Part shown: piece by piece, positions 27,823 to 51,723 of the stretch
Layout of the letters: every line of letters begins with the position of its first letter
Position numbering within the stretch: position 1 is the first letter of the stretch
From: Acidobacteriaceae bacterium
GTDB taxonomy: Bacteria > Acidobacteriota > Terriglobia > Terriglobales > Acidobacteriaceae
Reading direction: 5' to 3'
Assembly: GCA_025355505.1 (NCBI GenBank)
Contig: JANXZM010000029.1
Location: 1-64,000 of the forward strand
Length of the DNA: 64,000 bases
Translations under genes and position numbers: made by a program
Notes under the pieces: generated by a model
Told to the model about the DNA's origin: nothing
The model's database searches: none
The model's input: the letters and a program-made list of their open reading frames with translations, nothing else

Positions 27823-28805
27823 GCTTGCGCTTGCCCCGCCCCTGTCGTTTCGTAGCGCGGCGATTGATCTTTGCCCGTGAGTTCTGAATATGTAAGACGC
27901 TTTCCAGCAATCTGAGTCATTGCCAAAGCGAAACGCTGGCCATCATTCAAGTCTTTGCGGTTGTTGTATCGGAACGTTTGTTCGTCAAGGTAACGGAAAA
28001 GATGAAACGGTTCGACGCTAACGTAGGTTCCCGAAATGCCGCGCTTGAGAAGGCTCCAGAAGTTCTCAAGGCCATTCGTGTGAACTCTCCCGTCAACATA
28101 TTGCACGGCGTGATCCACAACCTTGTGGGCATAGTCTCCGGCCAGTCCTTGGTACGAACGGAGCGCATCAGAGTACAGCGCCGCTCCTGCTTCGACGTGC
28201 TTGCGGACTTCCGCCTACAAAGCGTGCTTCTTGCGGTTCGGTACGACCGTGGTGCGAATCTTCCCGCCGCTCTCCAAGATTCCCATAACAGCGGTCTTGT
28301 CCTTCGTGCCAGTACCAGTGATGCGGCGTTTACGTTCACTAACGTGCATGTTCCTAGCCTTGCCGCCGATGAAGGACTCGTCTACTTCAATTTCTCCACT
28401 ACCGCCGTTGCCACCAAGTTTCTTGCCGAAAAAGTCATCCTGCAAAGCCAAGCGGAGACGTTGCAACATAAACCATGCAGACTTCTGGGTAACTCCCAGA
28501 GCGCGGTGGATTTCCATGCTGCTCACACCATTCTTACAATTCACCAGCATCCAGAAAGCGGCCATCCACTTATCGAGTCCCAAAGGGGAGTCCTCGAAAA
28601 TGGTTCCCAACTTAAGAGTGAACTGCTTCTGGCAGGAGTAGCAGAACCAGATGCGGCGAGTCTTGATAAACGAGTGCTTTTCGGAGCCGCAACGTGGACA
28701 GGACACTTTACCATTCGGCCAGCGAAAGCTCTTGGCGTAGTCGAAAGTGCGTTGCGGATCACTGAAGTAAATGATTGCTTCTTGCAGTGTTTTAGGAGCG
28801 TCCAT
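27819..28805 (-). pseudogene. IS1595-family transposase with in-frame amber stop
   Basis: The frame codes for 196 residues from 28805 to a TAG at 28215-28217, then stays open in the same frame to 27819. Without the stop it would be 328 residues, the usual family length. The N-terminal zinc ribbon shows CPRCGSE and CYSCQKQF. The DDE domain has EIEVDESFIGGK before the stop, and after it YSDALRSY and VHTNGLENFWSLLKRG. The element is thus probably immobile unless supplied in trans or read through. The reading continues with no frameshift, so the damage is a single point change. Confidence 0.85.
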
Positions 28806-35916: not shown

Positions 35917-37479
35917 ATGGATACGCGGCAGCGGGTGTCACTGTTTTTTGCTTTCATCTTTACAGTCGTACTGCTGACTGGAAGCAGTTATGCGATTCCG
36001 GCTTTCTCACGCCAGTACGGCACTTCGTGCAGCACCTGTCACGTGAACTTTCCCAAGCTCAACGATTTTGGCAAGGCCTTCAAGGATGCCGGATTCAAGT
36101 TTCCCAAAGACGACGAAACGTTTATCAAGGTTCCCCCGGTAATGCTGGGAGCGCCGGCGCAGGCAGAATTGTGGCCTCATACCATATTTCCGGGGACCAT
36201 CCCGGGTCTGCCGCCGATCGGATTGCGATTCAACACTTTCTTCCAGGTGCTCGGCAAGAATCGCCATAACTTCAACTTGCAATTGCCTGCGGGGCAAGTT
36301 GGACCGTTCATTCCCCGGACCGACTTTCAACCGGGATTATTCAGCATCTTCATGGCCGGAAATTTTGGCAGCGACATTGCCTTCTGGGTCGATGACGACA
36401 TCAGCGTCGGCGGCTCCGGCGCCAGCGGCGGCTTAGGCGATGGCTACCTGAAGTTCGTCAATATCGGCCGCTTCTTCAAGCTGCCGGCTAACGTTCTGAG
36501 CATGCGCGTCGGGCAATTCGAACTCGACCTGCCCTTCAGTCCGGCGCGCAGTTGGAACCTGAGCGGGTGGGACATTTACGATCAGGCGAACATCGGCACC
36601 TCCAGCCAGAATGTCAATAATAGTTTTGCCCTCTCCAGCGCGGCTCAAGGCGTAGAGTTCAGCGGCGGGCACACTTACCGCGGCTATCACTACTCCGTTG
36701 CCGTCGTGAACCAGAACACCAGCGGCTCTTCCGCGAGCCCAGCCAATGTTTCCCCCCAAGTGGGCTTCGTTTCCGATTCCAACTTCAAGGATCTGTATGG
36801 CCGCTTTTCCTACCGCTTCAACCTGGAGCGTGACCCAGCCAGCAGGAACGAAACCCAAGCGGCGGGAGCGACGGGACCGCGCGATCACACTTATCTCACT
36901 CTCGGCACCCTTTATTTCTATGGACGCTCGGTGCAGCGGGCCACGGGTGTGGAATCCGATGGGACCACTAAGACCGTCATCACTGCTCGCGAGCCGTTCT
37001 ATCGCGTGGGTGCCGACTTCAGCTTCAATTACCGTAAGCTCAATTTGTTTGGACAATACCTCGTAGGCCGAGATCACAACCTGATCCCGCTGACTCCCGA
37101 GGGTTTCGAGTTGCCTGTCGGCTTCATCCGAAGCAATCCGGTAAAGTTCAACGGCGGCTTCGTGGAAGCGGATTACATGATCCACCCGTGGCTCATGGCC
37201 ATCATGCGCTGGGATGGGGTTACCTCGAGTGCGGATCGGATCAACGGCATTGGGGCAGACGCGGGAAATCCGCCCCCCTCGCCTTTTTTGTCGCCGTTCC
37301 GTTCGGCTCGCAACCGCTTTACGCCAGGTGTACAGGTCCTCATTCACGCCAACATTAAGACGTCGTTTGAGTACCAGATCCGGCCGCAGCAGATCGTGTA
37401 CGACCCCGCCACAGGAAACGCGATCACCAACCCCTTCCGAACGAACTCGGCGGTCGCCGGCCTGGAATGGGTGTACTAA
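35917..37479 (+). CDS. Monoheme cytochrome-porin fusion (Cyc2-like)
   Basis: A 520-residue exported protein. After a signal peptide ending near Ala26 comes PAFSRQYGTSCSTCHVNFP with one heme c site (C38-x2-C41-H42), followed by LNDFGKAFKDAGFKF and then about 450 residues rich in alternating hydrophobic strands and ending in Tyr, typical of an outer-membrane barrel. Cyc2 iron oxidases have the same plan and a closely similar N-terminal pattern (PxFARQTG-CxxCH-x2-FP-FGR-FK). I infer a Cyc2-like outer-membrane electron conduit; substrate unproven. ATG 35917 has GGAG upstream. A CRP-type box precedes it and a cupredoxin gene follows. Confidence 0.8.
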   Translation: MDTRQRVSLFFAFIFTVVLLTGSSYAIPAFSRQYGTSCSTCHVNFPKLNDFGKAFKDAGFKFPKDDETFIKVPPVMLGAPAQAELWPHTIFPGTIPGLPPIGLRFNTFFQVLGKNRHNFNLQLPAGQVGPFIPRTDFQPGLFSIFMAGNFGSDIAFWVDDDISVGGSGASGGLGDGYLKFVNIGRFFKLPANVLSMRVGQFELDLPFSPARSWNLSGWDIYDQANIGTSSQNVNNSFALSSAAQGVEFSGGHTYRGYHYSVAVVNQNTSGSSASPANVSPQVGFVSDSNFKDLYGRFSYRFNLERDPASRNETQAAGATGPRDHTYLTLGTLYFYGRSVQRATGVESDGTTKTVITAREPFYRVGADFSFNYRKLNLFGQYLVGRDHNLIPLTPEGFELPVGFIRSNPVKFNGGFVEADYMIHPWLMAIMRWDGVTSSADRINGIGADAGNPPPSPFLSPFRSARNRFTPGVQVLIHANIKTSFEYQIRPQQIVYDPATGNAITNPFRTNSAVAGLEWVY

Positions 37480-37523
37480 ACCGGGGAGGCCACGCCTCCC
37501 CCTTTCTAAGAACAGGAGAAATC

Positions 37524-38105
37524 ATGAAACGTAATGTTCTAGTAGTAGTTGCGGTCCTGGTAGTTCTCAGCCTGGCTGCGAATGCCGGCACAATCAGCGG
37601 AAAAGTATCGGGCGTCGCCGGTGAATCCGTTGTTTATGTGGAAGCACCCGCGGGCAAAACGTTCCCGGCGCCAACGCAGCAGCCAGTGATTGATCAGAAG
37701 GGGTTGATGTTTCATCCGCATATCGTGGTGGTGCAGCAAGGCACGACTGTCGAATTCCTCAACAGCGATAGTGTTGCGCACAACGTGTTTTGGATTTCGA
37801 TCGGGGGCAACAAGAAACTCGGCCACAACATGGGTACTTGGCCGAAGGGCGAGAAACGTCCGTTCAAATTTGACAATCCTGGAGCGGTGCCGTTGTTGTG
37901 CAATGTGCACCCGGAGATGTCAGGCTACGTTGTCGTAGCGCCTACCGCGTACTTCGCTCTAACGGATAAGTCGGGCGAATACAAAATCGAGAACGTCCCC
38001 GACGGCAGTTACAAGGTAACCGCGTGGCACGAAGGCGCCAAGAACCAAACCAAGCCGGTCGCAGTGGCGGGCGACAGCAAAGCGGACTTCACACTGAGCA
38101 AATAG
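37524..38105 (+). CDS. Exported cupredoxin with C-terminal Cna/carboxypeptidase-like domain
   Basis: A 193-residue periplasmic blue-copper protein. The signal peptide ends near Ala21. The type 1 copper ligands are visible as H86 in SVAHNVF and C126-x2-H129-x2-M132 in LLCNVHPEMSGY. Residues of about 140-193 (KSGEYKIENVPDGSYKVTAW) form a small beta-sandwich of the carboxypeptidase-regulatory type. It lies 44 bp after the Cyc2-like gene, with AGGAG upstream of the ATG. It could accept electrons from that protein, as rusticyanin does from Cyc2 in Acidithiobacillus; this pairing is an inference. Confidence 0.88.
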   Translation: MKRNVLVVVAVLVVLSLAANAGTISGKVSGVAGESVVYVEAPAGKTFPAPTQQPVIDQKGLMFHPHIVVVQQGTTVEFLNSDSVAHNVFWISIGGNKKLGHNMGTWPKGEKRPFKFDNPGAVPLLCNVHPEMSGYVVVAPTAYFALTDKSGEYKIENVPDGSYKVTAWHEGAKNQTKPVAVAGDSKADFTLSK

Positions 38106-38193
38106 GGAAATGGGGAGCGGGCGGCCACGTCCGCTCCACGCCTTCTTTGAGTAGAATGCTTTCCATTAAACGAACGCACTGGGGATTGCCATC

Positions 38194-40179
38194 TTGCTGA
38201 AGCGGTTTAAAGATAAGAAAGTGGACAGGGATTGGTTGAATACCAACTTTCCCTGCATGATGGCTTGTCCAGCCCACACCAATGCGGGCCGGTACGTCGC
38301 GCTCATTGCGGAAGGGCGATTTGAGGAAGCTTACAAGTTTGCCCGCGATCCCAACCCGCTGGCGAGCATCTGCGGCCGGGTCTGTGCGCATCCGTGTGAA
38401 ACTGCCTGTCGCCGTGGAGATATCGATCGCCCCATTGCAATACGTGCTCTCAAGCGCTTTCTGACGGAGCGGCACGGGCCTGAATCCAAGCACCCTGTCG
38501 ATATCAATGCGGGACGCGGCCAAAACAAGTTGCCCTACAAAGTCGCCGTGGTCGGCGGCGGGCCGGTAGGACTATCGGCGGCTCACGACCTGGCTCTCAT
38601 GGGCTACTCGGTCACTATTTTTGAAGCCGCTCCGGTCGCTGGCGGAATGCTTTACCTCGGAATTCCCGAATACCGCTTGCCTCGTGACGTGGTCGAAGCG
38701 CAAGTGCGAGAAATTCTCGCGACCGGCGACATTACTCTGAAGCTGAATCAGGCCGCGGGACGCGACTTCATGATTTCCGGCCTGCGCCATCAGGGCTTCG
38801 ATGCGGTGCTGATCGCCGTGGGCGCGCATCGCAGCCGCGATCTCACCATTCCGGGCGTTGAACTGGATGGCGTCTACAAGGGCATCGATTTCCTGCTCAA
38901 CGTGAATCTGGGCTACAAGTTCACGATTGGCAAGAAAGTCATTGTGATCGGCGGTGGCAACGTGGCCATGGACGTGGCGCGTTCGGCGGCTCGCGAAGTG
39001 GTCCGGCAACATGTCGCCGGAGTAGAGGATCTGGAGCCGTCGCTGGAGAGTATAAGTGCCGTGGCCACGAAAGAGATGGTTGACGTGTCACTCTCTGCTC
39101 TTCGCCTGGGTGCGCAGGAAGTGCATCTCGTCTGCCTGGAAAAACGCGAAGAAATGCCGGCGGCGTTGGAAGAGATCGAAGAGGCCGAAACGGAAGGCAT
39201 CGTCATGCATCCCGGCCTCGGCCCCAAGCGCATGATCGGCAAAGATGGCAAAGTTGTGGCGTTGGAGACGCTGGACACGAAATGGGTCTTCGATCAGAAC
39301 AAGCGCTTCAATCCGGCGTTCTACGAGGGCAGTGAAACCCAACTGGAGTGCGACACCATTATTATGGCCGTCGGCCAGGCGCCCAATCTGGATTTTCTTA
39401 AGTCCGAAGACGGTGTGGAGCTGTCTCCCCGCGGTCTGATTGCGGTGAACCCGCAATCGCTGATGACCTCGGCGAGCGGAATCTTTGGCGGCGGCGATTG
39501 CGTCTTCGGCCCCCGCATGATCATCGATAGCGTGGCGGACGGCAAGCGCGCCGCGGTCGGAATCGATGAATTCCTGCGTGGCCGGAAGCACCCCGAACCT
39601 ATTGTCGAAGTCGAGGTCTTTAAGCGGCACAGCATGCCGCTCGACTTGTTGGACCTGGTTCGTCCCGCCATTCCCATGCTGCCGCTGGAGCGTCGTACCG
39701 GAGTGACCGAAGTCGAGGTCGGATACGACGAGCATTCCGCGATGGAAGAAGCCCAGCGCTGCCTGCACTGCTGGGTGAACACGGTCTTCGAGGGCGTCCC
39801 CGAAGACGGAAGCATGTGCATCCTGTGCGGTGGTTGCGTGGATGTGTGCCCGGAAAACTGCCTGTCGCTCGTATCGCTGGATCGCATCCAGTTCGAGCCG
39901 GAAACCGTACAGCAGATCCGGGAACACCAGGAATTGTTTGGCGTCGAGCTGGACGAAGTGGCGGCCGACGAACTCGGCATCGTGACAGGTTCCGCCATGT
40001 TGAAAGACGAGACTCGCTGTATTCGCTGCGGCCTGTGCGCCGCGCGCTGTCCCGTCGGCACCATCACCATGGAGTCTTACAACCTGGTTTCCGCCGAAGC
40101 CACGGGATTGATTTCGATTGAAGCCATTGATGGGCCACTCAGACCAAAAGCGCCAGTCACGGCTGGAGGCCCGAGGTAG
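38194..40179 (+). CDS. FAD/NAD(P)-dependent oxidoreductase with ferredoxin domains (GltD-like)
   Basis: A 661-residue cytosolic flavoprotein. The N-terminal Fe-S domain has CMMACPAHTNAGRY and ICGRVCAHPCETACRRG. The FAD fold starts VAVVGGGPVGLSAAHDLA near residue 119, and the NADPH fold has VIVIGGGNVAMDVARS. Two C-terminal [4Fe-4S] ferredoxin motifs are CILCGGCVDVCPENC and CIRCGLCAARCPVG. Relatives couple NAD(P)H to ferredoxin or another Fe-S partner; this one lies 16 bp upstream of the Rieske gene, so it may link NAD(P)H with the membrane complex. TTG start at 38194; no glutamate synthase large subunit is present. Confidence 0.85.
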   Translation: MLKRFKDKKVDRDWLNTNFPCMMACPAHTNAGRYVALIAEGRFEEAYKFARDPNPLASICGRVCAHPCETACRRGDIDRPIAIRALKRFLTERHGPESKHPVDINAGRGQNKLPYKVAVVGGGPVGLSAAHDLALMGYSVTIFEAAPVAGGMLYLGIPEYRLPRDVVEAQVREILATGDITLKLNQAAGRDFMISGLRHQGFDAVLIAVGAHRSRDLTIPGVELDGVYKGIDFLLNVNLGYKFTIGKKVIVIGGGNVAMDVARSAAREVVRQHVAGVEDLEPSLESISAVATKEMVDVSLSALRLGAQEVHLVCLEKREEMPAALEEIEEAETEGIVMHPGLGPKRMIGKDGKVVALETLDTKWVFDQNKRFNPAFYEGSETQLECDTIIMAVGQAPNLDFLKSEDGVELSPRGLIAVNPQSLMTSASGIFGGGDCVFGPRMIIDSVADGKRAAVGIDEFLRGRKHPEPIVEVEVFKRHSMPLDLLDLVRPAIPMLPLERRTGVTEVEVGYDEHSAMEEAQRCLHCWVNTVFEGVPEDGSMCILCGGCVDVCPENCLSLVSLDRIQFEPETVQQIREHQELFGVELDEVAADELGIVTGSAMLKDETRCIRCGLCAARCPVGTITMESYNLVSAEATGLISIEAIDGPLRPKAPVTAGGPR

Positions 40180-40195
40180 TCGATCGAGGTAACTA

Positions 40196-40687
40196 ATGCC
40201 CGAAGAAAAAAACAATACGCCGGCGGAAACAGGCAAGGACTTCAACCGCCGCGACTTTTTCGTGAAGCTGGGATTGGGATCGCTGAGCATCGCCGCTGCC
40301 GGCACGGCGGCGTTTTCGTACCAGTTTCTATCGCCGAATGTTTTATACGAGCCTTCTCCCATCGTCAACGCAGGCCGGCCGGAAAATTATGCGGTCGATT
40401 CCGTGACGATTGACGTGAACTCGGGAATTTATCTAGTCCACGCCCAGGAAGGTTTTTTTGCGCTGAGTGCCGTCTGTACCCACCTCGGATGCCTGACCGC
40501 TTGGAAACCTGAGTTGGGCATTATCGCTTGCCCTTGCCATGGCAGCAAATTCAAGCGCGACGGGGAAAAGATTGAAGGCCCGGCTCCCAAGCCGCTGCCC
40601 TGGCTGCAGACCTGGATCAGCGACGAGGGTGATCTGATGGTGGACCGTTCCATCACTATTCGTTCCATGCAGTTTGTGAGGGTGTGA
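40196..40687 (+). CDS. Rieske iron-sulfur protein
   Basis: A 163-residue Rieske subunit. A Tat-type twin-arginine signal ([14 protein letters not shown]) includes the membrane anchor. The cluster ligands are C94-T-H96 and C112-P-C-H115 in VCTHLGC and CPCHGSKF; C99 and C114 can form the usual disulfide. It oxidises quinol at the outer face of the membrane and passes the electron to cytochrome c. Its gene overlaps the cytochrome b gene by 4 bp. Confidence 0.95.
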
Positions 40688-41484
40688 GCGTGGCGAAAAC
40701 AATCGCGAGCTACTTCGACGAGTTGCGCGGCACAAGGGTTTGGCGTTCGGTGTTCCGCAGTGGAACTGGATCCAGCACTCTACACCGGGCCCTCGCGGTG
40801 CAGCAGAATGTATTTCTGCACCTTTTCTCCACCAAGGTGCGGACCCGAATGCTAAGCTTCAGCACGACCTGGTATCTGGGCACCCTGACCTTTGGAACGT
40901 TTCTCCTATTGGTAGTTACTGGCATTCCGCTGATGTTCTATTACCATCCTTCGGTGCCGCAGGCTTATGCTGACACTAAGGATTTGGAGTTTGTAGTTTC
41001 CTCCGGCTTGTTTCTACGCAACCTGCACCGCTGGTCGGCGCATGCCATGGTGTTTCTAGTATTCGCGCACATGTTCAAGGTGTTCTATCGTGGCGCCTAC
41101 CGTCCGCCGCGCGAGTTCAATTGGGTCATCGGAGTTATCCTGCTGCTGATTACTCTGCTGCTCAGTTACACGGGCTATCTGCTGCCCTGGGATCAGTTGG
41201 CTTTTTGGGCGATCACGGTGGGTTCCAATATTGCTTCCGCTGTGCCGGTTATGGGCAACAAGGTTCATTTCCTCATGCTTGGCGGCAATGTGGTCAACGC
41301 CAACGCGCTGCTGCGCTTTTACGTGCTGCACTGCATGATTCTACCCCTGGTCGCGATCCTTTTTGTCGCGGTTCACTTCTGGCGCATTCGCAAAGATGGC
41401 GGCCTCTACTCGCACCAAAGCGAGCCGCAAACGGTCACGGCTGGACCGGTTCCCGCCGCCGCGAAGGGGGGGCAATTCCAATGA
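40684..41484 (+). CDS. Cytochrome b, N-terminal (b6-like) subunit
   Basis: A 266-residue membrane subunit with four helices and the two b-heme histidine pairs: H in [11 protein letters not shown] in [12 protein letters not shown] in [10 protein letters not shown] and H in [27 protein letters not shown] is the conserved Qo-side motif. It corresponds to PetB of b6f and QcrB of Bacillus-type complexes, where cytochrome b is split into two subunits. GTG start with a 4-bp overlap of the Rieske stop. The C-terminal tail after residue 245 is hydrophilic. Confidence 0.94.
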
Positions 41485-42197
41485 CCGATCCAACGACCGA
41501 CCCAAAAGATTTTGTCGCTGGCATCGACTCGAATGCCCACAAGTCGCCGACGCGGGTTGTCTTCGTCACCAGGCGAACCTCGGCGCAGGTCAAGGTTGTG
41601 GACGAAGAGGAGGTGCAGACGTATCCGGAAGTGCTATTCCGCGCGATTGTCGCCATCGAGGTGCTTACGATTGCGCTGGTGGGCGCGGCGCTTCTGTTCA
41701 ATGCGCCCCTTGAAGGCATTGCCGATCCCTCGCATACACCCAACCCCGCCAAGGCGCCCTGGTACTTTCTCGGATTACAGGAGATGCTGCACTACTTTCC
41801 CCCGGTGGTGGCGGGGGTGTTGGTTCCGGGGTTGGTCGTGATGGCGCTCATTGTGATTCCGTACTTCAACATCAACGTCGAGGCCGAAGGTTTGTTTCTG
41901 AAGGATCGCAAGCGTCGACTTCTTATTTTTTACCTGGCCGCGGCTGGGCTCTCGCTGTTTTTGTTGCTGTTTGATGTGTACGTGGCGCTGGCGCCGACGC
42001 TGATTGTCGCCGGGTTCATGGTGCTGGCGGCGCAAAGTTCTCCGCAGTCGCCTTCGGCTTTCCGGCGCTATCTGGCTGCCAAACCACTTTCATACTGGAT
42101 CATGACCTGGTTTCTGTTCGAACTGGCCGTGCTCACGGCGGTTGGCACTTTCTTCCGCGGCCCAGGTTGGTCCTGGGTGTTGCCCTGGAGGAGCTAA
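41481..42197 (+). CDS. Cytochrome b, C-terminal (subunit IV/QcrC-like) subunit
   Basis: A 238-residue subunit with three to four membrane helices. It contains [19 protein letters not shown], the position of the PEWY/PDWY Qo-site motif; here the acidic residue is replaced (APWY), as I recall from Bacillus-type QcrC. Residues 1-60 form an extra hydrophilic N-terminal arm. It overlaps the cytochrome b gene by 4 bp (ATGA) and forms the second half of the split cytochrome b. Confidence 0.9.
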
Positions 42198-42198
42198 C

Positions 42199-44277
42199 TT
42201 GCAATCATCATCGCAATCAATGAAGAACGCGTTGTCTTCCATGTGGCAGACGTTGTTCGGCCATCCCGTCCGCGCTTTTGGCGTGGTCAGCCTGCTGTTA
42301 TTGATTTCACTGGCCATTGCACCGGCTAAGAACCACTTCAGCGAATGGCGCCACTATCAGAAACAGTATCTGGCGCTGATTGGCAACCGCGGAGATGCGA
42401 AAACACTGGAGCTCCACTTCCACAACCACGACGGGATCCAGCAGATCTGGCTTCCGGGGCTCGGAGTCGTAGATCGCTGCACCACCTGCCACGTCGGATT
42501 AAAAGAAGCCAGTCTTGCCGATGTCAGCACACAGCCGTTCCGCCGGCATCCGGTAATCCCGCACACGCTTGACCAGTTCGGCTGTGTGATGTGTCACCGT
42601 GGGCAAGGCCCAGCGACCACGGTCGAAGAAGCGCATCGCAGCACTGCGGCGTGGGAGCAGCCGCTTTTGCCGGCGCGGTATGTCCAGTCTTCTTGCGGGC
42701 AATGCCATCGTGCTCCTTTAACCGGCACACCGCAACTAAACCTAGGACGCAATCTGCTGGCTCGATATGGTTGCGTGCATTGTCACACCATCAAACTACC
42801 CGACGGCAGTGCGATCAAGCCGACCGATGATCCGCCTTCGCTTTTTCACATCGCCGACAAGAGCACACGGGAATGGATTTATGCGTGGTTGAAGGATCCG
42901 CAGGCCTACGCCATTACAGCAACGATGCCGAATTTTAAGTTGAGCGACCTGGACGCTCGTGATATTTCGGCTTTCCTGATTGCCAACAGCACACCACTCG
43001 CTGGAGATACGGCGCCAGCCACGAAAGACAAAGACGAGAAGGCGCCTGATCCGACCGCTGGAGCCAGCTTGTACGGCGGGTCATTCTGCTCCTCCTGCCA
43101 TGCCGTGCAGAACGCCGCCGGGAATGTGGTGGGCGGTGATGTCGGTCCGGAGCTAACTAGAGTCGGCACTAAGGTAAAGCCGGAATGGTTGCGGGCATGG
43201 TTGCGCAACCCGCGTGTCTACGATCCGCTAACGGCGATGCCCCACTATCGTCTCACCGATCCGCAAGTTAACCTTCTCACCGCTTTCCTCGGAAACAAGG
43301 CGGATGCCGATCTGCTCGCCAATGTCCATCTCGACGCCGCCACGCCGGAACAGATTGCACACGGCAAACTTCTGGTGACCGAGTACGGCTGCGCCTCATG
43401 CCATGAGATCGGCGGCATCAAGAAGCCGGATAACTTCGCTCCCGAACTGACCCGCATCGGAAGCAAGCCGCTCACGCAGATTATTTTCCTGCCCGGAATG
43501 GAGCACAGCACGCCCGCGTACATTTCGGCCAAGATTCGGCAGCCGCGTTCGTTTGGAGCGGCACTGAAGATGCCGCAGTACACCTTCGCACCAGCGCAAA
43601 TTGATGCTTTGACGACCGCACTGCTCGCGCTCACGGATCGGGCACATGACTTGCCCATGGCATTGACCGTGCCTGCGCAACCGGGTTCGAACTACCAGCC
43701 CGCAGGCAAAGCCGGACAGCTCATGGCGGACCTGGCCTGCTTTACCTGCCACGCCATCAACGGTCGCGGCGGCGACCTGGCTCCTGACCTGACCTGGGAA
43801 GGCAGCTCAGTGCAGCGGCCGTGGCTGCAAGCATTCCTGAAGAACCCAGGCACGCTGCGCCCGGCGCTCATCCGTCGCATGCCGAAGTTCAACCTTTCGG
43901 AGAGCGAGATCACGGAGCTTACCGACTACATCATGGCCGTTTACCAGACTCCGGCATTCGACCGCGACTCGATGCCCTCCAGCGGCTATGCTTCTGCTCA
44001 GGTAGAGCAGGGACGACAGCTTTTCTATTCCAAATACGCCTGCCAGTCTTGCCACATCATTGATACCAAGGTCGACAAAGGCTACATCGGACCGACGCTC
44101 ACCCAAGTTGGCTCGCGCCTGACTGCCGCCTGGATTTACCACTGGCTGAAAGACCCGCAGGCCATGCGGCCCGGCGCCATCGAACCGAACCGCAACATGA
44201 ACGACGAAGATGCCCGCGCACTCACCGCATTCCTGATGATGCAGAAGGGCTCCAATAAGCAGGAGGCGAAGAAATAA
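42199..44277 (+). CDS. Octaheme membrane-anchored c-type cytochrome
   Basis: A 692-residue protein with an N-terminal anchor (FGVVSLLLLISLAIAPA) and eight CxxCH heme sites: CTTCH, CVMCH, CGQCH, CVHCH, CSSCH, CASCH, CFTCH and CQSCH. The C-terminal two thirds look like tandem class I cytochrome c domains with repeated GxxLxxxLxxPxxxxxAxMP tails, such as WLKDPQAYAITATMPNFKL. It starts with TTG at 42199, five bases after a GGAGGAG that lies within the end of the previous gene. It takes the place of cytochrome c1 in this operon and should collect electrons from the Rieske protein. Confidence 0.92.
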   Translation: MQSSSQSMKNALSSMWQTLFGHPVRAFGVVSLLLLISLAIAPAKNHFSEWRHYQKQYLALIGNRGDAKTLELHFHNHDGIQQIWLPGLGVVDRCTTCHVGLKEASLADVSTQPFRRHPVIPHTLDQFGCVMCHRGQGPATTVEEAHRSTAAWEQPLLPARYVQSSCGQCHRAPLTGTPQLNLGRNLLARYGCVHCHTIKLPDGSAIKPTDDPPSLFHIADKSTREWIYAWLKDPQAYAITATMPNFKLSDLDARDISAFLIANSTPLAGDTAPATKDKDEKAPDPTAGASLYGGSFCSSCHAVQNAAGNVVGGDVGPELTRVGTKVKPEWLRAWLRNPRVYDPLTAMPHYRLTDPQVNLLTAFLGNKADADLLANVHLDAATPEQIAHGKLLVTEYGCASCHEIGGIKKPDNFAPELTRIGSKPLTQIIFLPGMEHSTPAYISAKIRQPRSFGAALKMPQYTFAPAQIDALTTALLALTDRAHDLPMALTVPAQPGSNYQPAGKAGQLMADLACFTCHAINGRGGDLAPDLTWEGSSVQRPWLQAFLKNPGTLRPALIRRMPKFNLSESEITELTDYIMAVYQTPAFDRDSMPSSGYASAQVEQGRQLFYSKYACQSCHIIDTKVDKGYIGPTLTQVGSRLTAAWIYHWLKDPQAMRPGAIEPNRNMNDEDARALTAFLMMQKGSNKQEAKK

Positions 44278-44278
44278 C

Positions 44279-45028
44279 ATGTTCGTAAATAAAATGACCA
44301 AACACTGGCGGACATTCTTCGCAGTCTCACTCACTCTCGCAAGCGCAGCGTGCACTCAAAAGCCGGAACCAGCTTCTGCCCTAAAGCCCTTGGCGTTTGG
44401 AGCCGCACTCGTAGAGTCGAGTGGGGGCAAGCAGATCGGCGCAACCGGCATGGTCCTCGCTCAGTCCCTGGTCGTGCAGGTCAGCGATGAACAGGGAACA
44501 GCCGTCACCGGAGCGCTGGTCGAATTCAGCGGACCTGCGGGCGTCAGCTTTGATCCTCGGAGTGGGTTAACCGATTCCAGCGGGCAGCTCAGCACGAACC
44601 TCGTTCTGGGTAGCATCGCAGGCCGATATCAACTTACCGCGCACACACCTGCGAAAGCTCGGAAACCAGTCGAACTGAAGATTGAAGAAATTGCGCTGGG
44701 AATTCAGCAGCAGGTGGGATACCAGCTCGACAACAAGTATTGCGCTCGCTGCCACAATCCGGAGTCCACGGCGGAGCGTGTTTCCAATTACGACAATCTT
44801 CAGGTCAAGCCGCACCCCTTCACCGAGGGCGACGCACTCAACAAAATAAGCGACGCCGACCTGACATCGATCATCAGTCACGGCGGACCCGCGCTGAACA
44901 AATCCGCATTGATGCCCCCGTACGGCTATACTCTCAGCAAGACGGAGATCGAGGCGCTGATTTCATACATCCGCCTGATCTCCGATCCTCCTTATCATGC
45001 TTCCGGAATGGTCTATGCACAAAAGTAA
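44279..45028 (+). CDS. Lipoprotein with Big-like domain and monoheme cytochrome
   Basis: A 249-residue lipoprotein: lipobox LASAAC with Cys25, a bacterial Ig-like (Big1/invasin) domain at about 45-140 (SLVVQVSDEQGTAVTGALVE), and a C-terminal heme c domain with CARCH in YCARCHNPES plus a likely distal Met in ALMPPYGY. It is read directly after the octaheme gene and overlaps the next gene by 14 bp. It could present the heme at the periplasmic face or outer membrane. Unusual domain pairing; function inferred. Confidence 0.85.
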   Translation: MFVNKMTKHWRTFFAVSLTLASAACTQKPEPASALKPLAFGAALVESSGGKQIGATGMVLAQSLVVQVSDEQGTAVTGALVEFSGPAGVSFDPRSGLTDSSGQLSTNLVLGSIAGRYQLTAHTPAKARKPVELKIEEIALGIQQQVGYQLDNKYCARCHNPESTAERVSNYDNLQVKPHPFTEGDALNKISDADLTSIISHGGPALNKSALMPPYGYTLSKTEIEALISYIRLISDPPYHASGMVYAQK

Positions 45029-46331
45029 GGCCGGTTGGCTGGGCCTGGTACTGTCCGCTGCCAGCTTGTTTGCCCCTGGAGCTTCGCTTGCTCAAGTTGT
45101 TCCTCCGCCGGAAATCAAAGACCCCGCATTGCGCGCGCTGCAGCAGCAGTACATGGACGACTTGAGGCTGGCAGGCGAGGACATTCTGGCAAACCATTTC
45201 GACTATCCGTTCTACCTTAGCCGCAAACTCGACCTCGACGAAGCACAACAACAGATTGCGGATCAGCAGTCCATTCGCTTCGACACCTATAGCGGCAAGA
45301 CGGTGCTCGCGATCACGGGCAACTACTATGCCGCCTACTCTGCGCAAAAAATAAATTCCGAACAGCGGGCCCGGAGCACTTTTCTCAACGTGGTGATGCC
45401 GATCCTGAAAGCCGCAGTGCCCCGATTTCAGAACAACCAGCATGTTCAAGGGTACGCAATCGAAGTTTCGCATCACATCAGGGGAAAGGTAATGGGTGTT
45501 TCCATGGAGCGTCCGGAAAACCTGATGGTGTATCTGCCGCGGAGCGGCGCTCTCAAGCTGCTCGCCTCCAAGGATGAGACCGCGCAGCAGGCGGCGCTGC
45601 TGCAGGGACAGATTTTTCTCAACGCGCAACCCATCTCCATTTGGCTCAACGAAGCTGGACCCCCGGTGGCGGGGAACGATCGTACTAGTGACGCTACCGC
45701 CAACGCTCCATCGGATTCACCTTCAACGGGAGTCGAAGTCGTTTCGGCGGGGAACGGCAACGGTACGCAGCCAAGTGGCACCGCTACCCCAACCATCCCG
45801 TTGAAACCGAAAGAACCTCCGCCACCTCCGCCCCGCGATACCTCGACGCAAGCATTGGCCGCCGTTCAACTTTCCAATCAGCCGATCGCCGATCGGATCG
45901 TGAAAGAACTGGACTCACAGGCTCACTTCGTTTCCTACGCGCCGCCAAAATTTGTCGCTTTTCGTCAGGGAATTTATCTTGAGCTTTCCGTGAATTCCAC
46001 TTTGCCGGCGTCGGCCGCCGGATCGCGGTACAAACTGGCAGCCATGGCTTTCGATGAGCACGTTGCCCACCTCGTCCGTCCGCTGGTGGCTTATTTCAAG
46101 GATGACAAAGAATTTGACGGGATCGGCTTCAGCACGAACATCCACCTTGTCGGCAAAGCAGCCCCCGGCGCATCCGAAGCCGTGGAATTCTTTTTTCCGC
46201 TTTCATCTCTGCGCTGCTATGAAAAATATGATTGCACCGGCCAGCAACTCCTGGACGCTGGAACGGTCCTAATCAATGGCGAACGTGTGGCCCTCGATCT
46301 GCAAATTGCCGAGGGAGGCGCCAGCCACTGA
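45015..46331 (+). CDS. Secreted protein of unknown function in the bc-complex operon
   Basis: A 438-residue exported protein with a signal peptide ending near ASLAQ. There are no heme, copper or Fe-S motifs. A proline-rich segment (LKPKEPPPPPPRD at about 260-275) links two globular halves. The C-terminal half contains IGFSTNIHLVGKAAPGASEA and FFFPLSSLRCYEKYDC. No family is recognised. It is translationally coupled to the heme lipoprotein gene (14-bp overlap), which suggests a structural or assembly role with the cytochromes. The ATG at 45015 is preferred over that at 44997. Confidence 0.75.
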   Translation: MHKSKAGWLGLVLSAASLFAPGASLAQVVPPPEIKDPALRALQQQYMDDLRLAGEDILANHFDYPFYLSRKLDLDEAQQQIADQQSIRFDTYSGKTVLAITGNYYAAYSAQKINSEQRARSTFLNVVMPILKAAVPRFQNNQHVQGYAIEVSHHIRGKVMGVSMERPENLMVYLPRSGALKLLASKDETAQQAALLQGQIFLNAQPISIWLNEAGPPVAGNDRTSDATANAPSDSPSTGVEVVSAGNGNGTQPSGTATPTIPLKPKEPPPPPPRDTSTQALAAVQLSNQPIADRIVKELDSQAHFVSYAPPKFVAFRQGIYLELSVNSTLPASAAGSRYKLAAMAFDEHVAHLVRPLVAYFKDDKEFDGIGFSTNIHLVGKAAPGASEAVEFFFPLSSLRCYEKYDCTGQQLLDAGTVLINGERVALDLQIAEGGASH

Positions 46332-46909: not shown

Positions 46910-48358
46910 ATGAATCTGCGAGAACGCATCCGAGACTGGTCCCAGCCCATCTATTATCTGGGCCAGAATCCCGTCACACTTACGGGAGCCGTGATCACGA
47001 CCAGCACGGCGCTTACCAACATCGCCTTCTGGTTCTATGACGTCTTCCTGCCGGGGCCGCCGCATCCTTATATCGGCCTTTTGGTCTATCTCATTCTTCC
47101 GGGAATTTTTGTACTCGGCTTGCTCCTGATTCCAATTGGAATCACGTTCCGGCGACGAAGTCTGCGCGGGAGCGGGAAACTGCCGGGGACTTATCCCGCC
47201 ATCGACCTGCAACTGCCCGTGGTGCGGCGTACCTTTGAGTACGTGGCCGTGGCGACCGTGCTCAATCTTCTCATTCTGGGGACGGCATCGTACCGCGGCG
47301 TGGAGTACATGGATTCGACGAGTTTCTGCGGGACGACTTGTCACCGTGTGATGGATCCCGAGTATACGGCCTATCAGAATTCGCCCCACGCGCATGTGGC
47401 CTGTGTCGATTGCCACATCGGACCCGGAGCGGGGTGGTTTGTGCAGTCGAAGATTTCCGGTCTGCGGCAGGTCCTGGCGGTAACCTTCCACACTTATTCA
47501 CGTCCGATTCCTTCGCCGGTAAAGTATCTCCGCCCGGCGCGCGAAACCTGCGAGCACTGTCACTGGCCCCAACGCTTTACCGGCGACAAGTTCCTGGTTA
47601 AAACCAGCTACAAGGACGACGAGAAAAACACGCCGCAGACGGACGTGTTGCTGCTGAAAGTTGGCGGACGCACGTGGCAGGGCTCGGTCGGAATCCACGG
47701 ACGCCACCTCGCCGATGCGGCGCGCATCCGCTACATTTCGACCGACAACCAGCGCCAGACCATCCCAGTTGTGTATTACACCGACGATAAGGGAAAGACC
47801 ACCGAATTCATTTCCAGTGATGCGAAGCCAACCCAACAACAATTGGACAAGGGTGAGCATCGCACGATGGATTGCGTGGATTGCCACAACCGGCCCACGC
47901 ATGCCTTCGACATGCCGGAAAACGCAGTGGACAAGCAAATGTCGCTTGGGCGGATCAGCCCAGAGCTTCCCTACATCAGGAAAAAATCGGTCGAGGTTCT
48001 CAAAGTGGATTATCCCACCCGCGAGGTGGCGCAGCTTCGCATCACGGAAGAACTCAACAATTTCTATCGGGCCAACTACCCGCGGATATACCAGACGCGG
48101 CGCACGCTGGTAGAACAATCGGGCGAGGAGGTGGCGGCGATCTACCTTCGCAATATTTTCCCGGACATGCGCATGACCTGGGGCACTCATCCGAATAATC
48201 TTGGGCATAATGATTCGCCGGGCTGCTTCCGCTGCCACGACGGCAGTCACACCAGTGCTGATGGCCAGACCATCACCAATGACTGTTCCGCGTGCCATCA
48301 GGTTCTGGCAACAGGGGAAGAAAATCCCAAGATCCTGAGCGACCTGGGAATGAAATAG
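46910..48358 (+). CDS. NapC/NirT-like multiheme cytochrome
   Basis: A 482-residue inner-membrane cytochrome. Two or three hydrophobic segments occur in the first 135 residues. There are five CxxCH sites (two CVDCH, plus CEHCH, CFRCH and CSACH) and a sixth, atypical CGTTCH (Cx3CH) site in SFCGTTCHRVM, which occupies the position of the first NapC heme. NapC/NrfH proteins take electrons from quinol and hand them to periplasmic or outer-membrane cytochromes. It lies 24 bp before the 13-heme gene. Confidence 0.9.
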   Translation: MNLRERIRDWSQPIYYLGQNPVTLTGAVITTSTALTNIAFWFYDVFLPGPPHPYIGLLVYLILPGIFVLGLLLIPIGITFRRRSLRGSGKLPGTYPAIDLQLPVVRRTFEYVAVATVLNLLILGTASYRGVEYMDSTSFCGTTCHRVMDPEYTAYQNSPHAHVACVDCHIGPGAGWFVQSKISGLRQVLAVTFHTYSRPIPSPVKYLRPARETCEHCHWPQRFTGDKFLVKTSYKDDEKNTPQTDVLLLKVGGRTWQGSVGIHGRHLADAARIRYISTDNQRQTIPVVYYTDDKGKTTEFISSDAKPTQQQLDKGEHRTMDCVDCHNRPTHAFDMPENAVDKQMSLGRISPELPYIRKKSVEVLKVDYPTREVAQLRITEELNNFYRANYPRIYQTRRTLVEQSGEEVAAIYLRNIFPDMRMTWGTHPNNLGHNDSPGCFRCHDGSHTSADGQTITNDCSACHQVLATGEENPKILSDLGMK

Positions 48359-48381
48359 GGTTGAGGAGCGGGAGGTCGAGC

Positions 48382-50574
48382 TTGCCGACCAGAGCGCCAC
48401 GCGCGGCAGATATCTTCAGGCGATGGAATTTCGCGCATCTCGTTTTGCTTCTTTCCGTCTGTCTTCTTGCAATCTGCGTGCTGATACCCACTCGGGTTCG
48501 AGCGCAAGCGAAGTCGCCGCATCCACTTAAGCAGGACGAAAGCTGCCTCGCCTGCCATGGCGAGGCGGGAATGACGTCGGCCAGCGGCAAAAGCATCTCG
48601 ATCGATCCTGCCAGGCATGCGGCCAGCGTCCACGGCACTCTGGACTGCAACGACTGCCACAAGACCATCAAGGATTTTCCCCACCCCAGCAAAATAGTGA
48701 AGGTTCAATGCGCGACTTGCCACGCCGACGAGGCTTCCCATGCGTCAGCCAGCATTCATGGCGCGGCCGATGTAACCTGCCAATCCTGCCATGGCGATCC
48801 ACACGAGGTGGCCGCCGCGGCCCAGACGAAGCTGGCAAAGTGCGCGCAGTGCCATGCCGATGAAGTGAAGCAATTCCGGCAAAGCATACACGGACAAGCG
48901 GCAGTGGCAGGCGACCCGGACGCACCGGACTGCGTGTCCTGCCATGGGCCCGCGCATCAGATTCAGGTCTCGAGCGATGCAGCCTCGCCGGTAGCCAAGA
49001 ACAACCTCCCCGGCACTTGCGCATTTTGTCACAGCAACCAGGAGTTTCTCTCCCGGCACAAGATTCCATTCGCACGCCCCGTGGAACTCTATCGACAAAG
49101 CGTGCATGGACGAGCGGTGGCGGATGGAGACGGGGCTGCCGCAAGCTGCTCGGATTGTCACGGGAGCCACGGAATCCTGCCCTCGCAGGATGCGCGTTCC
49201 AAGGTCAACCACTGGAATATCGCGGTGACTTGTGGACATTGCCATGCGGACATTGCCAGGACGTATCTTGAAAGTGTGCACGGACAAGCCATGAAGGCCG
49301 GCGTGTCCGCTGCTCCGGCGTGCAGCGACTGCCACGGGGAGCACTTGATCCTGGGGCCGAAAGACCGGGGATCGCTGGTGAACGCAGCCCGTGTCTCGAT
49401 GGCTACCTGCGGGCGATGCCACAGCGATGAACGCCTGGCGTTACGCTACAATTTGCCCTCTGACCGTGTTCCTTCCTACGCCGACAGCTACCACGGTCTT
49501 GCCTCGCGAGGTGGATCCCAGAGCGTTGCCAACTGTGGTTCCTGCCATGGCGTGCACAATATCTTTCCGTCCACCGATTCGCGCTCCACGGTGAATGCCG
49601 CGAACCTGGGGAAAACGTGCGGGAATTGTCACGCCGGCGCGGGTGACCATTTCGTCATCGGGCCGGTGCACGTGCAAACTACCACGGGCCCCGCGCATCC
49701 CGTCGTGAAGTGGATCCGCTGGACTTACTTGGCACTGATCCCGATGACACTGGGATTCATGATCTTGCATAACCTGCTGGACCTTTTGTCGAAGCTCATA
49801 CGGCGTCAGCCGCGACATGAAACCGGCGGGCAAGTGTCTCGGATGAATCTACACTTCCGCATTGCCCACTGGGGCGTGATCCTGAGCTTTCCGGCACTGG
49901 TGTTCACGGGTTTTGCGCTGAAGTATCCCGAGGCGTGGTGGGCGCGTCCACTATTACTGTGGGAGGGCCACTGCGCGTTTCGCGGGTTGGTGCATCGCAG
50001 CGCGGCGGTGGTACTAATCGCGGCCACGGTCTACCACGTGATTCACCTCGCGGTGAACCGGCGAGACCGCTTGTTCCTGAAAGCGATGCTGCCCCAATTG
50101 AAGGACGCGACGGATCTGGTGCAGGTGTTCTCCCACAATCTGGGACTCACGAAAATCGAACCGCAGTTTGCGAAATTCAACTACGCGGAAAAAGTGGAAT
50201 ACTGGGCGTTCATGTGGGGCACGGTGGTGATGACGATTTCCGGCTTCTTGTTGTGGTTTAACAATTTCACCCTGCGCCATTTCCCCAAGTGGGTGTCGGA
50301 CGCGGCCACCGCCGTGCACTATTACGAGGCGCTGCTCGCGACCTTCTCCATCCTGCTGTGGCATTTCTACATGGTGATCTTCGACCCGCTCGTCTACCCG
50401 ATGGATACAGCCTGGATCAACGGCAAAGCCTCAGCGGATCATTTGCGCCATTCCCGCCCGGCATATCTTCGCGCTCTGGAACGGGCCCATCTGGCCGAGT
50501 TGCCCACTGAACCTTCCGACTACGGGGATGAGCAGGGCGGTACATCAAGCGGCAACCCTCCTGCGAAGACTTAG
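48382..50574 (+). CDS. 13-heme cytochrome c with C-terminal b-type membrane domain
   Basis: A 730-residue protein. After an N-terminal membrane/signal segment come 13 CxxCH sites in the first 430 residues (CLACH, CNDCH, CATCH, CQSCH, CAQCH, CVSCH, CAFCH, CSDCH, CGHCH, CSDCH, CGRCH, CGSCH, CGNCH). The C-terminal 270 residues hold about five membrane helices with histidines of a cytochrome b561/FdnI-HydC type domain (FRIAHWGVILS, TVYHVIHLAV, LLWHFYMVIF). The same fusion plan is known from CbcL of Geobacter, a quinone oxidoreductase for extracellular electron transfer. The TTG start at 48382 follows GGGAGG by 6 bases. The first membrane segment begins near residue 20. Confidence 0.88.
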   Translation: MPTRAPRAADIFRRWNFAHLVLLLSVCLLAICVLIPTRVRAQAKSPHPLKQDESCLACHGEAGMTSASGKSISIDPARHAASVHGTLDCNDCHKTIKDFPHPSKIVKVQCATCHADEASHASASIHGAADVTCQSCHGDPHEVAAAAQTKLAKCAQCHADEVKQFRQSIHGQAAVAGDPDAPDCVSCHGPAHQIQVSSDAASPVAKNNLPGTCAFCHSNQEFLSRHKIPFARPVELYRQSVHGRAVADGDGAAASCSDCHGSHGILPSQDARSKVNHWNIAVTCGHCHADIARTYLESVHGQAMKAGVSAAPACSDCHGEHLILGPKDRGSLVNAARVSMATCGRCHSDERLALRYNLPSDRVPSYADSYHGLASRGGSQSVANCGSCHGVHNIFPSTDSRSTVNAANLGKTCGNCHAGAGDHFVIGPVHVQTTTGPAHPVVKWIRWTYLALIPMTLGFMILHNLLDLLSKLIRRQPRHETGGQVSRMNLHFRIAHWGVILSFPALVFTGFALKYPEAWWARPLLLWEGHCAFRGLVHRSAAVVLIAATVYHVIHLAVNRRDRLFLKAMLPQLKDATDLVQVFSHNLGLTKIEPQFAKFNYAEKVEYWAFMWGTVVMTISGFLLWFNNFTLRHFPKWVSDAATAVHYYEALLATFSILLWHFYMVIFDPLVYPMDTAWINGKASADHLRHSRPAYLRALERAHLAELPTEPSDYGDEQGGTSSGNPPAKT

Positions 50575-51444: not shown

Positions 51445-51625
51445 GTGTAGCCTCCGCTCACAGGTACTTTGGCAAGTACCTCGCCATTCCTGTGAAGCAG
51501 GGAAAGACGTCAGTGAAGGTATCGAAGTGAAACAAAATAAATGAGTTAGTTTGATGTTGTGAGGCGCATCCAGGTCCGCTGCCCAGCGGAGTTGGGCTGA
51601 AAGTGCGTGCTTTCCCACAGCGATG

Positions 51626-51641
51626 TGTGATCTCCATCACC
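51626..51641. promoter_or_regulatory. CRP/FNR-type operator upstream of the regulator
   Basis: TGTGATCTCCATCACC: arms TGTGAT and ATCACC around CTCC, one mismatch. It is about 190 bp upstream of the regulator start codon at 51444. Autoregulation is plausible. Confidence 0.5.
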
Positions 51642-51723
51642 AGTCTGCTGGTTACACGACCGAGCGCGCCACCCATGTTCGGCTGGTTGTTGCTTCTGAT
51701 CGTGAGTTTTTCGGTACTGGGTT

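Follow-up and report, generated by a model that had tools for sequence, protein, structure and literature searches.

Cyc2-type proteins serve as markers of iron oxidation, and their function outside the known iron oxidisers is an open question. The question is raised again by a stretch of 64,000 nucleotides from the genome of a soil Acidobacteriaceae bacterium (hereafter the window), in which a gene for a fused monohaem cytochrome-porin is followed by a cupredoxin gene. Is the porin a relative of Cyc2, which proteins would it exchange electrons with, and in which direction would the electrons flow?

Table 1 Genes of the porin-cupredoxin block, with positions in the window
Feature	Coordinates	Strand	Remarks
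Cyc2-like fused monohaem cytochrome-porin	35917..37479	+	520 aa; CSTCH at residues 38-42; barrel ~101-519
Cupredoxin with C-terminal CarboxypepD_reg domain	37524..38105	+	193 aa; Copper-bind PF00127
NAD(P)-type FAD/Fe-S oxidoreductase	38194..40179	+	GltD-like, PRK12771-related
Rieske protein	40196..40687	+	CTHLGC / CPCHGSKF; Phe replaces tuning Tyr
Cytochrome b, b6/ExtP-like	40684..41484	+	266 aa; PF00033
Subunit IV / ExtQ-like membrane protein	41481..42197	+	238 aa; Cytochrom_B_C PF00032
Octahaem c-type cytochrome	42220..44277	+	685 aa; 8 CxxCH
Monohaem c-type cytochrome	44279..45028	+	Big_1-like stretch below Pfam cut-off
Conserved exported protein	45015..46331	+	two alpha/beta halves in model

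The first two genes run from ATG to stop just where a preliminary description of the window had placed them (Table 1). On inspection, the N-terminus of the porin is signal-like, with a hydrophobic stretch that ends in SYA and continues as IPAF. Behind it lies exactly one CxxCH, as had been noted, and 79 of the 80 relatives likewise have a single CxxCH, the exception being a broken frame at locus L116. The motif A.P.[FW][AS]R[QK][TY]...C..CH...P.L is present in the porin and in none of 2000 shuffles made from five pooled window proteins. The porin and 20 relatives retain the invariant residues of the haem region in an alignment of all 21 (25-77% identity), in which the invariant or near-invariant columns contain no His or Met except the His of CxxCH and the start Met.

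As no family was found for the porin in Pfam or NCBIfam at E up to 0.1 and a sequence search of the PDB gave nothing credible, the assignment of its fold rests on structure comparison. The AlphaFold2 model (mean pLDDT 73.6, pTM 0.73) has 16 strands, all within residues 101-519. Foldseek ranked OprP first (2o4v, E 1.6e-11) and OprO 22nd (4rjw, E 1.4e-9), and VIA gave Z scores of 23.3 and 23.0 for OprP and OprO, level with those for general porins. Mariprofundus Cyc2 models in print also resemble OprO and OprP. Of the barrel with a haem domain plugged into it that had been suggested earlier, the model and its OprP/OprO matches bear out the barrel and not the plug, the haem domain (residues 21-96) being modelled with low confidence.

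We compared the porin with the features that define Cyc2 in PMC8406198. It has the signal peptide (judged by eye) and single CXXCH, a PXL four residues behind the haem site (CSTCH-VNF-PKL), a length well within the limit of at least 365 aa and, in the predicted structure, a 16-strand OprO/OprP-like porin. The motif AXPXFAR[Q/K][T/Y] is not strictly present, as the porin reads AIPAFSRQY, with the one departure of Ser for Ala. The motif is readable in 79 of the 80 relatives, with ARKY or ARQY in 20 and S for A in 59, nine of which vary at the Q/K position too; porins of remoter members of the operon mostly have FARKY or FARRY. In a profile-profile comparison with five named Pseudomonadota Cyc2-type proteins, the porin family matched with a probability of 99% (E 8.8e-18), which, together with the Cyc2-type motif and its single departure, agrees with the Cyc2-like N-terminus of the preliminary description. 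Homology between the window porin and Cyc2-type proteins is thus supported at the level of sequence. A tree inferred by a quick method, with six plasmid-borne Pseudomonadota Cyc2-type proteins as references and no Leptospirillum or Mariprofundus sequence among them, separated the family clearly from the R-Q-T clade of Pseudomonadota (SH-aLRT 100, branch 2.15). Because one residue of its motif differs from the strict form, and because the tree bears on the separation from the Pseudomonadota proteins and not on clusters 1-3, the protein is called "Cyc2-like" here, apparently a new variant within the known Cyc2-type group. No relative of the porin was found among the scanned viral contigs, plasmids and phages at the limits used.

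The adjacent protein had been described as a blue-copper protein with His, Cys, His and Met ligands. It matches PF00127, and its type 1 copper ligands H86, C126, H129 and M132 are intact wherever a row of a 94-row alignment has a letter at their position (92, 92, 92 and 94 rows, respectively). It lies beside the porin in 73 of the 74 loci with enough sequence, and the pairing is conserved across Acidobacteriota.

The cupredoxin is followed by a Rieske/cytochrome b complex and an NAD(P) oxidoreductase, on which the preliminary description was silent. The oxidoreductase consists, by Pfam, of Pyr_redox_2 with an N-terminal Fer4_20 and two C-terminal Fer4 domains carrying 4Fe-4S motifs, and its cluster cysteines do not vary among the aligned rows that have a letter at these positions (54 to 74 rows). 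Among 77 PDB sequences that matched the Rieske protein at E up to 0.001, the first two were Kuste4569 (9rk4, E 3.9e-23) and Kustd1480 (9rk3, E 7.2e-19) of Kuenenia, with a b6f Rieske third (E 1.3e-16). The octahaem cytochrome has eight CxxCH in 52 of 71 complete relatives and four to seven in the others; its best NCBIfam match is a SoxX single-domain model and its second, below cut-off, an Ext model. The conserved exported protein often accompanies the porin even in loci without the Rieske and cytochrome b genes. With its model (mean pLDDT 85.3, pTM 0.54) as query, Foldseek gave nothing at E up to 0.001, and the VIA matches did not exceed Z 6.0.

Intergenic gaps from 35917 to 46331 measure 44, 88, 16, -4, -4, 22, 1 and -14 bases. 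We counted the genes in 80 loci, scoring each only where the sequence sufficed, and found beside the porin the NAD(P) oxidoreductase in 59/67, the Rieske protein in 58/66, cytochrome b in 56/63 and the octahaem cytochrome in 52/55. The block is still present at 25-30% porin identity. Short or overlapping gaps and a conserved block therefore point to one operon-like module. The block also occurs in part in a second phylum, with Rieske and cytochrome b genes in 3 of 20 loci and the NAD(P) oxidoreductase in 1 of 20. Locus L116 (66% identical), the only one titled Ignavibacteria, probably represents an acidobacterial contig placed in the wrong bin; further genomes of its titled phylum hold diverged members.

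NrfH-like and b561-fused multihaem genes lie just downstream, after a gap of 578 bases. They were considered as part of the operon core and rejected, owing to this gap and to their absence from 13 of 13 stretches that cover 13.1 kb or more downstream of the porin. In the 80 loci, which end within 10 kb downstream of the porin and so do not fully cover the position that these genes have in the window, they occur somewhere in 3. A candidate multihaem porin conduit is found at 57341-62228.

The same genome has a second Cyc2-like cluster on contig C41 (L201), in the order Cyc2-like gene, dihaem cytochrome, copper-like gene, coxB, A, C and D. Pfam recognizes, besides a porin without family, two Cytochrom_C stretches, one gene, COX2, COX1, COX3 twice and COX4_pro. 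The Pfam-assigned order agrees with the rus operon type cyc2, dihaem cytochrome, (cup), coxB, coxA, coxC, coxD. The gene between the cytochrome and COX2 has only CarboxypepD_reg-like domains in Pfam, and a cupredoxin-like SHN...CNVHPWM pattern is visible by eye. An echo of the Acidithiobacillus Cyc2-rusticyanin pair had been heard in the window genes; the cupredoxin partner there is genuine and conserved, and the rus-like order is far closer on C41. Among 20 stretches compared for the oxidase-linked cluster, the full cox cluster is present in three (L204, L206 and L207), and only the porin, dihaem and copper-like genes in L205. The remaining 16 mostly represent other Cyc2-like subfamilies, four of them (L208, L217, L220 and L221) with Rieske and cytochrome b genes near the porin. 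Of 250 genomes of the family, 21 have both porins, 37 only the oxidase-linked one, 46 only the window type and 146 neither, a weak co-occurrence (one-sided Fisher p 0.049, uncorrected for kinship).

From the content, order and conservation of the genes, the predicted fold and the ligands, we infer the direction, substrate, potentials, locations and coupling of the module as follows. With its one haem, the Cyc2-like porin would move single electrons over the outer membrane; their acceptor, a cupredoxin in the periplasm, may act as a hub in the manner of rusticyanin. The hub would exchange electrons with the octahaem cytochrome, and this in turn with the Rieske/cytochrome b complex bearing the NAD(P) oxidoreductase on its cytoplasmic side. 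A share of the current might run downhill to cytochrome oxidases, and the complex would handle the remainder among quinol, NAD(P) and the cupredoxin. The bifurcating scheme that others have proposed for anammox has quinol oxidised, a high-potential side reduced and NAD(P)H made; applied here, the high-potential side would be the cupredoxin. Strictly reversed, the scheme poses an energetic puzzle, since it would spend NAD(P)H to raise porin electrons to quinone and would not turn them into NAD(P)H.

Published potentials are +208 mV for Cyc2-PV1 and +303 and +335 mV for the anammox Rieske proteins. Because the former is below the latter, inward flow is favoured if this ladder transfers here; it is favoured too because the C41 cluster of the same genome couples a Cyc2-like gene to an oxidase, where the electrons would be expected to end on oxygen. 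We consider the chances about even that electron transfer is the common task of the genes at 35917-46331, acting as one module, and that it runs mainly inwards, with the cupredoxin as hub and Fe(II) or another dissolved donor as the probable source. RuBisCO was not found in the genome, which is 96% complete, and a classical iron oxidiser with a Calvin cycle is therefore unlikely. Against uptake stand the downstream NrfH-like and b561-fused multihaem genes and the candidate conduit, which could favour export, as well as the second-phylum loci, mostly without Rieske and cytochrome b, the weak co-occurrence of the two porins, and the Ser in place of the motif Ala.

Outward electron flow is a serious rival to uptake, albeit one we hold to be rather unlikely. 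Here quinol would be oxidised by the Rieske/cytochrome b complex, with one electron going to NAD(P)H and the other leaving through octahaem cytochrome, cupredoxin and porin to an oxidant like Fe(III) or Mn(IV). The redox proteins of the operon would then stand in one closed circuit, consistent with the anammox bifurcating scheme, and the candidate conduit and other multihaem genes are close by. In NCBIfam, moreover, cytochrome b and subunit IV each match a Geobacter Ext model best and the octahaem cytochrome matches one second-best, all below cut-off; the porin ExtI of the Geobacter ext cluster is reported to affect the reduction of selenite and tellurite. However, a single haem in a porin is considered in the literature to suit dissolved ions, and the Cyc2 potential in print is lower than those of the anammox Rieske proteins. 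Nor do the nearby multihaem genes go with the block elsewhere (0/13 long stretches, 3/80 shorter loci), and the Cyc2-like paralogue belongs to an oxidase cluster.

The porin could instead serve chiefly as the channel of a small redox-active solute, with its haem as a sensor or local reductase and the operon in the service of another periplasmic reaction. The listed columns of the 21 aligned sequences contain no conserved His or Met for a sixth haem ligand, and Geobacter ext pairs a haem-free porin with a Rieske/cytochrome b complex. Yet much of the invariant sequence sits in the haem region, and the almost invariable presence of cytochromes and a type 1 copper protein beside the porin indicates electron transfer, which makes a mere channel improbable. 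That the genes are unrelated neighbours by chance might be argued from the porin loci without Rieske and cytochrome b genes and the 8 of 67 without the NAD(P) oxidoreductase. But the order is kept over distant families and the genes overlap, and the conservation counts refute a chance neighbourhood in practice.

Returning to electron uptake, Acidobacteriota of soil and peat might have two parallel Cyc2-like routes, a rus-like one to an oxidase and one through the cupredoxin to an anammox-type NAD(P) complex; we put this forward tentatively, as somewhat doubtful. If true, one chain, encoded in a single operon, would link electrons from outside the cell with its NAD(P)H. Provided that uptake is the right direction, the use of iron-derived electrons could be widespread among the acidobacteria of soil and peat, also in those whose genomes, like this one, showed no RuBisCO. 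Since in a widespread acidobacterial Cyc2-like subfamily a single operon encodes both the porin and its entire putative inner chain, the function of this subfamily is a question that can be put to purified proteins. In the titles, abstract starts and passages of the open-access literature searched, no description was found of this operon, nor of a Cyc2 accompanied by a Rieske complex or cupredoxin in acidobacteria.

The window porin shares with the Cyc2 family (Acidithiobacillus ferrooxidans Cyc2, Mariprofundus Cyc2-PV1 and Leptospirillum Cyt572) the signal-like N-terminus, the single CxxCH, A.P.F.R before and P.L after the haem site, a predicted 16-strand OprP/OprO-like porin and a homologous haem domain. 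It differs in FSRQY versus the strict FAR[QK][TY], in forming a clade separate from the tested Pseudomonadota Cyc2-type proteins and in its link to a Rieske/cytochrome b complex. The rus/pet system of A. ferrooxidans has a comparable outer-membrane Cyc2, a copper hub, and an oxidase branch beside a bc-complex branch, and its rus order is repeated by contig C41. Unlike rus/pet, the window has the octahaem cytochrome, a split b6-like cytochrome b and the NAD(P) oxidoreductase and not cycA, sdrA and petABC, and its Cyc2-like gene shares an operon with the bc-type complex.

Geobacter sulfurreducens extHIJKLMNOPQS likewise combines a porin with a Rieske protein (ExtO), cytochrome b (ExtP), ExtQ and c-type cytochromes, whereas its ExtI porin is haem-free, a rhodanese and a selenoprotein cytochrome are present, and neither a cupredoxin nor an NAD(P) oxidoreductase is named in the gene list consulted. 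In the Nitrospina gracilis operon, and also in Kuenenia and Methylomirabilis oxyfera, b6f-like subunits adjoin an octahaem cytochrome c, in passages that do not mention a Cyc2-like porin with a cupredoxin. The Kuenenia stuttgartiensis complexes Kuste4569-4574 and Kustd1480-1485 have the Rieske proteins nearest to that of the window, a b6-like cytochrome b, a separate SUIV-like protein, a hexa- or octahaem cytochrome c, which in the window is octahaem, and an NAD(P) oxidoreductase matched by domain content. An HAO-like octahaem protein, which belongs to the Kuste4574 complex only, is not among the Pfam or NCBIfam matches of the operon genes. Judged by sequence, the Rieske/cytochrome b part of the window operon matches these anammox NAD(P)-linked complexes, while the window operon couples it with a porin and a cupredoxin. 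The enigmatic anammox complexes thereby gain a relative with a predicted high-potential partner, the cupredoxin.

The genes from the Cyc2-like porin to the exported protein all lie on the same strand, with successive gaps of 44, 88, 16, -4, -4, 22, 1 and -14 bases, and they very probably constitute one electron-transfer module. No family was assigned to the porin by Pfam, NCBIfam or PDB sequence searches. The AlphaFold2 model, calculated from the window porin and 72 relatives, contains 16 strands spanning residues 101-519 (mean pLDDT 73.6, pTM 0.73), and its haem domain (residues 21-96) has a pLDDT below 50 almost throughout. OprP was the first Foldseek match of the model (E 1.6e-11) and OprO ranked 22 (E 1.4e-9); VIA-align scored OprP at Z 23.3 (308 residues) and OprO at Z 23.0 (317 residues), level with general porins. 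The barrel proposed in the preliminary description is thus borne out in prediction. Cyc2-PV1 is described as a 16-strand porin resembling OprO/OprP (PMC8406198).

Features of the window and of the second Cyc2-like cluster of the source genome
Feature	Position	Strand	Remarks
ISXO2/IS1595-type transposase	28215-28805	-	
Cyc2-like porin	35917-37479	+	520 aa; hydrophobic leader, AIPAFSRQYGTSCSTCHVNFPKLNDFGKAFKDAGF, then strand-rich part
Cupredoxin with CarboxypepD_reg domain		+	directly downstream of porin
GltD-like FAD/NAD(P) oxidoreductase		+	after cupredoxin; Fer4_20 and two 4Fe-4S motifs
Rieske protein		+	after oxidoreductase
b6-like cytochrome b	40684-41484	+	
Subunit IV-like protein		+	after cytochrome b
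Octahaem cytochrome c		+	after subunit IV-like gene
Monohaem cytochrome with Big_1-like stretch		+	after octahaem gene
Exported protein of unknown function	45015-46331	+	last operon gene
NrfH/NapC-like cytochrome (5 CxxCH, 1 CxxxCH) and 13-haem cytochrome fused to b561-type domain	46910-50574	+	
CRP/FNR-type regulator and PAS hybrid histidine kinase	50743-53664	-	beside electron-transfer genes
Multihaem cytochrome (11 CxxCH, 1 CxxxCH, MtrC/MtrF-type domain), NHL propeller and 613-aa protein	57341-62228	-	
Cyc2-like porin, dihaem cytochrome, copper-like protein, coxB, coxA, two coxC, coxD	contig C41, 42000-61000 (L201), genes 4807-12733	-	second cluster

By the published criteria, a Cyc2 protein is a porin of 365 residues or more whose single CXXCH is preceded by AXPXFAR[QK][TY] and followed by PXL (PMC8406198). 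The window porin shares the single CXXCH, PXL, the length and the porin but departs at one motif position, with FSRQY (S for A) instead of FAR[QK][TY]. Among 79 readable close relatives this position is A in 20 and S in 59, and A is present in most of the more distant operon members. Profile comparison of the window family gave a probability of 99% (E 8.8e-18, residues 11-182) against five Pseudomonadota proteins encoded on plasmids, in one case a plasmid of Acidithiobacillus ferrooxidans; these references were termed Cyc2-type from the motif and a c-type cytochrome gene at most two genes away, not by experiment. The Cyc2 affinity claimed earlier therefore stands as profile homology, while the strict motif is missed. 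In a tree of 65 proteins, made by a quick method that raised long-branch warnings, six Pseudomonadota references form one clade (SH-aLRT 100) that sits on a branch of 2.15 outside the window family. In that family, acidobacterial sequences intermingle with those of a second phylum, reached from L116, a locus titled Ignavibacteria. In a published similarity network, Leptospirillum Cyt572 falls together with a densely connected group of homologs from Acidobacteria and Nitrospira (PMC10654088), so acidobacterial relatives as such were already known.

Among NCBIfam models, cytochrome b and subunit IV match Ext models best, at 257 bits (cut-off 290) and 57.4 bits (cut-off 150). The octahaem protein scores highest with the SoxX model, whose cut-off of 61 is exceeded with 131 bits over five stretches, as repeated cytochrome c domains would lead one to expect; ExtS comes second (93.4, cut-off 100). 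Four histidines at b-haem-like positions are found in 69-70 of 70 cytochromes b, and H46, kept in all 64 relatives with a letter there, could be a further haem ligand. The cytochrome b of the operon has WYLG at the presumed place of the haem c_n-binding cysteine of b6 proteins, so haem c_n may be absent. In the PDB, the Rieske protein is matched best by two Kuenenia proteins, Kuste4569 (E 3.9e-23) and Kustd1480 (E 7.2e-19), the latter with Phe at the same position as the acidobacterial Rieske proteins. The complexes of these two proteins are reported to combine a cytochrome b like b6, SUIV, a cytochrome with six or eight haems and a putative NAD(P) oxidoreductase, with measured Rieske potentials of +303 and +335 mV, and are proposed to produce NAD(P)H by bifurcation (PMC12954380).

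Among 396 searched genomes of the phylum, 109 have a match to the porin (E up to 0.001), as do 79 of 211 genera. Besides the window, the loci of the best 20 matches contain the cupredoxin (19), the octahaem gene (18), Rieske and cytochrome b (17) and the oxidoreductase (16); loci L041 and L045 end at most 3.3 kb from the porin and L043 at most 5.7 kb. A named-genome scan retained the best 80 of 388 relatives, 79 titled Acidobacteriota (many palsa, bog or fen) and one Ignavibacteria, and the two sets appear to have some genomes in common. Where downstream sequence suffices, these 80 loci carry the cupredoxin in 73/74, oxidoreductase in 59/67, Rieske in 58/66, cytochrome b in 56/63, subunit IV in 54/57, octahaem and monohaem genes each in 52/55 and the exported protein in 50/52. 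No copper ligand is lost in any of the aligned rows that can be read there (92 to 94 of 94 rows); the cupredoxin partner suggested at the outset is supported as genuine and conserved. The Rieske motif CTHLGC/CPCHGSxF is present in all 74 sequences, out of 76, in which its two parts were readable, and the oxidoreductase cluster cysteines are likewise kept wherever an aligned row can be read (54 to 74 rows). All eight loci lacking the oxidoreductase have the cupredoxin, seven retain the exported protein, and three (L052, L062, L073) have a dihaem cytochrome after the cupredoxin. The exported protein, modeled with two alpha/beta halves and no clear match to a solved fold, usually accompanies the porin and cupredoxin.

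In the second phylum, 84 of 296 genomes match the family profile. Among 20 loci, the cupredoxin occurs in eight (one weakly), Rieske, cytochrome b and octahaem genes in three (L174, L175, L189), and the oxidoreductase in L175 only. L116 has a 66% identical porin with a broken frame, a cupredoxin and the exported protein; its contig is probably a binning error. Rieske and cytochrome b genes also lie near other Cyc2-like porin subfamilies in Acidobacteriota (loci L208, L217, L220, L221), so the pairing may extend beyond the window family.

The source genome has a second Cyc2-like gene on contig C41, 28% identical overall, FARKYGLRCSACH. By families, its cluster comprises on one strand a dihaem cytochrome, a CarboxypepD_reg protein with a cupredoxin-like SHN...CNVHPWM pattern (read by eye), COX2, COX1, two COX3 and COX4_pro; this arrangement is the one described in the literature for the rus operon of Acidithiobacillus. 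Such clusters recur in three of 20 fetched stretches (L204, L206, L207); in short loci, own genome included, a dihaem gene follows the porin in 30/30 and a copper-like gene in 28/30. In what appears to be one and the same draw of 250 family genomes, the C41-type gene (E up to 1e-20) occurs in 58 and the window gene (E up to 1e-60) in 67; 21 carry both. Another cytochrome b on contig C30 and an NrfD-type gene near haem-bearing CoxB and CoxA on contig C113 indicate that the window complex is probably not the sole quinol oxidase.

The window porin would be the outer-membrane entry or exit point for electrons, the cupredoxin a copper hub between it and the inner membrane, where Rieske/cytochrome b and the oxidoreductase would form an NAD(P)-linked complex. 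We lean slightly toward a mainly inward flow. It is suggested by the sister cluster on C41 with its link to an oxidase, the ladder of published potentials and the argument that a pore with one haem is suited to dissolved ions; Fe(II) is a tentative candidate for the donor. Export through the operon is a serious rival, supported by the bifurcation logic of the complex and by the multihaem genes close by. Of the genes downstream of the operon, the nearest cytochromes are reminiscent of Geobacter ImcH and CbcL, the regulator and kinase beside them possibly control electron-transfer genes, and the distal multihaem cluster, whose 613-aa protein has no Pfam match and looks strand-rich by eye, is a candidate porin-multihaem conduit. 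RuBisCO was not found in the source genome by a search that detected the enzyme in 5 of the 14 known control genomes. The organism is therefore unlikely to live on iron and CO2 by way of the Calvin cycle, and the module would more plausibly have a supplementary part in mixotrophic growth.

Similar operons with an octahaem cytochrome are reported for Nitrospina, Kuenenia and Methylomirabilis (PMC3578206). Geobacter ext has the Rieske/cytochrome b set in common with the window operon, whereas the adjoining porin is described as haem-free (PMC5877670) and the window porin has one haem motif. The nearest functional analogy is A. ferrooxidans, in which the copper hub is reported to feed the bc1 complex too, for NADH production (PMC5566968).
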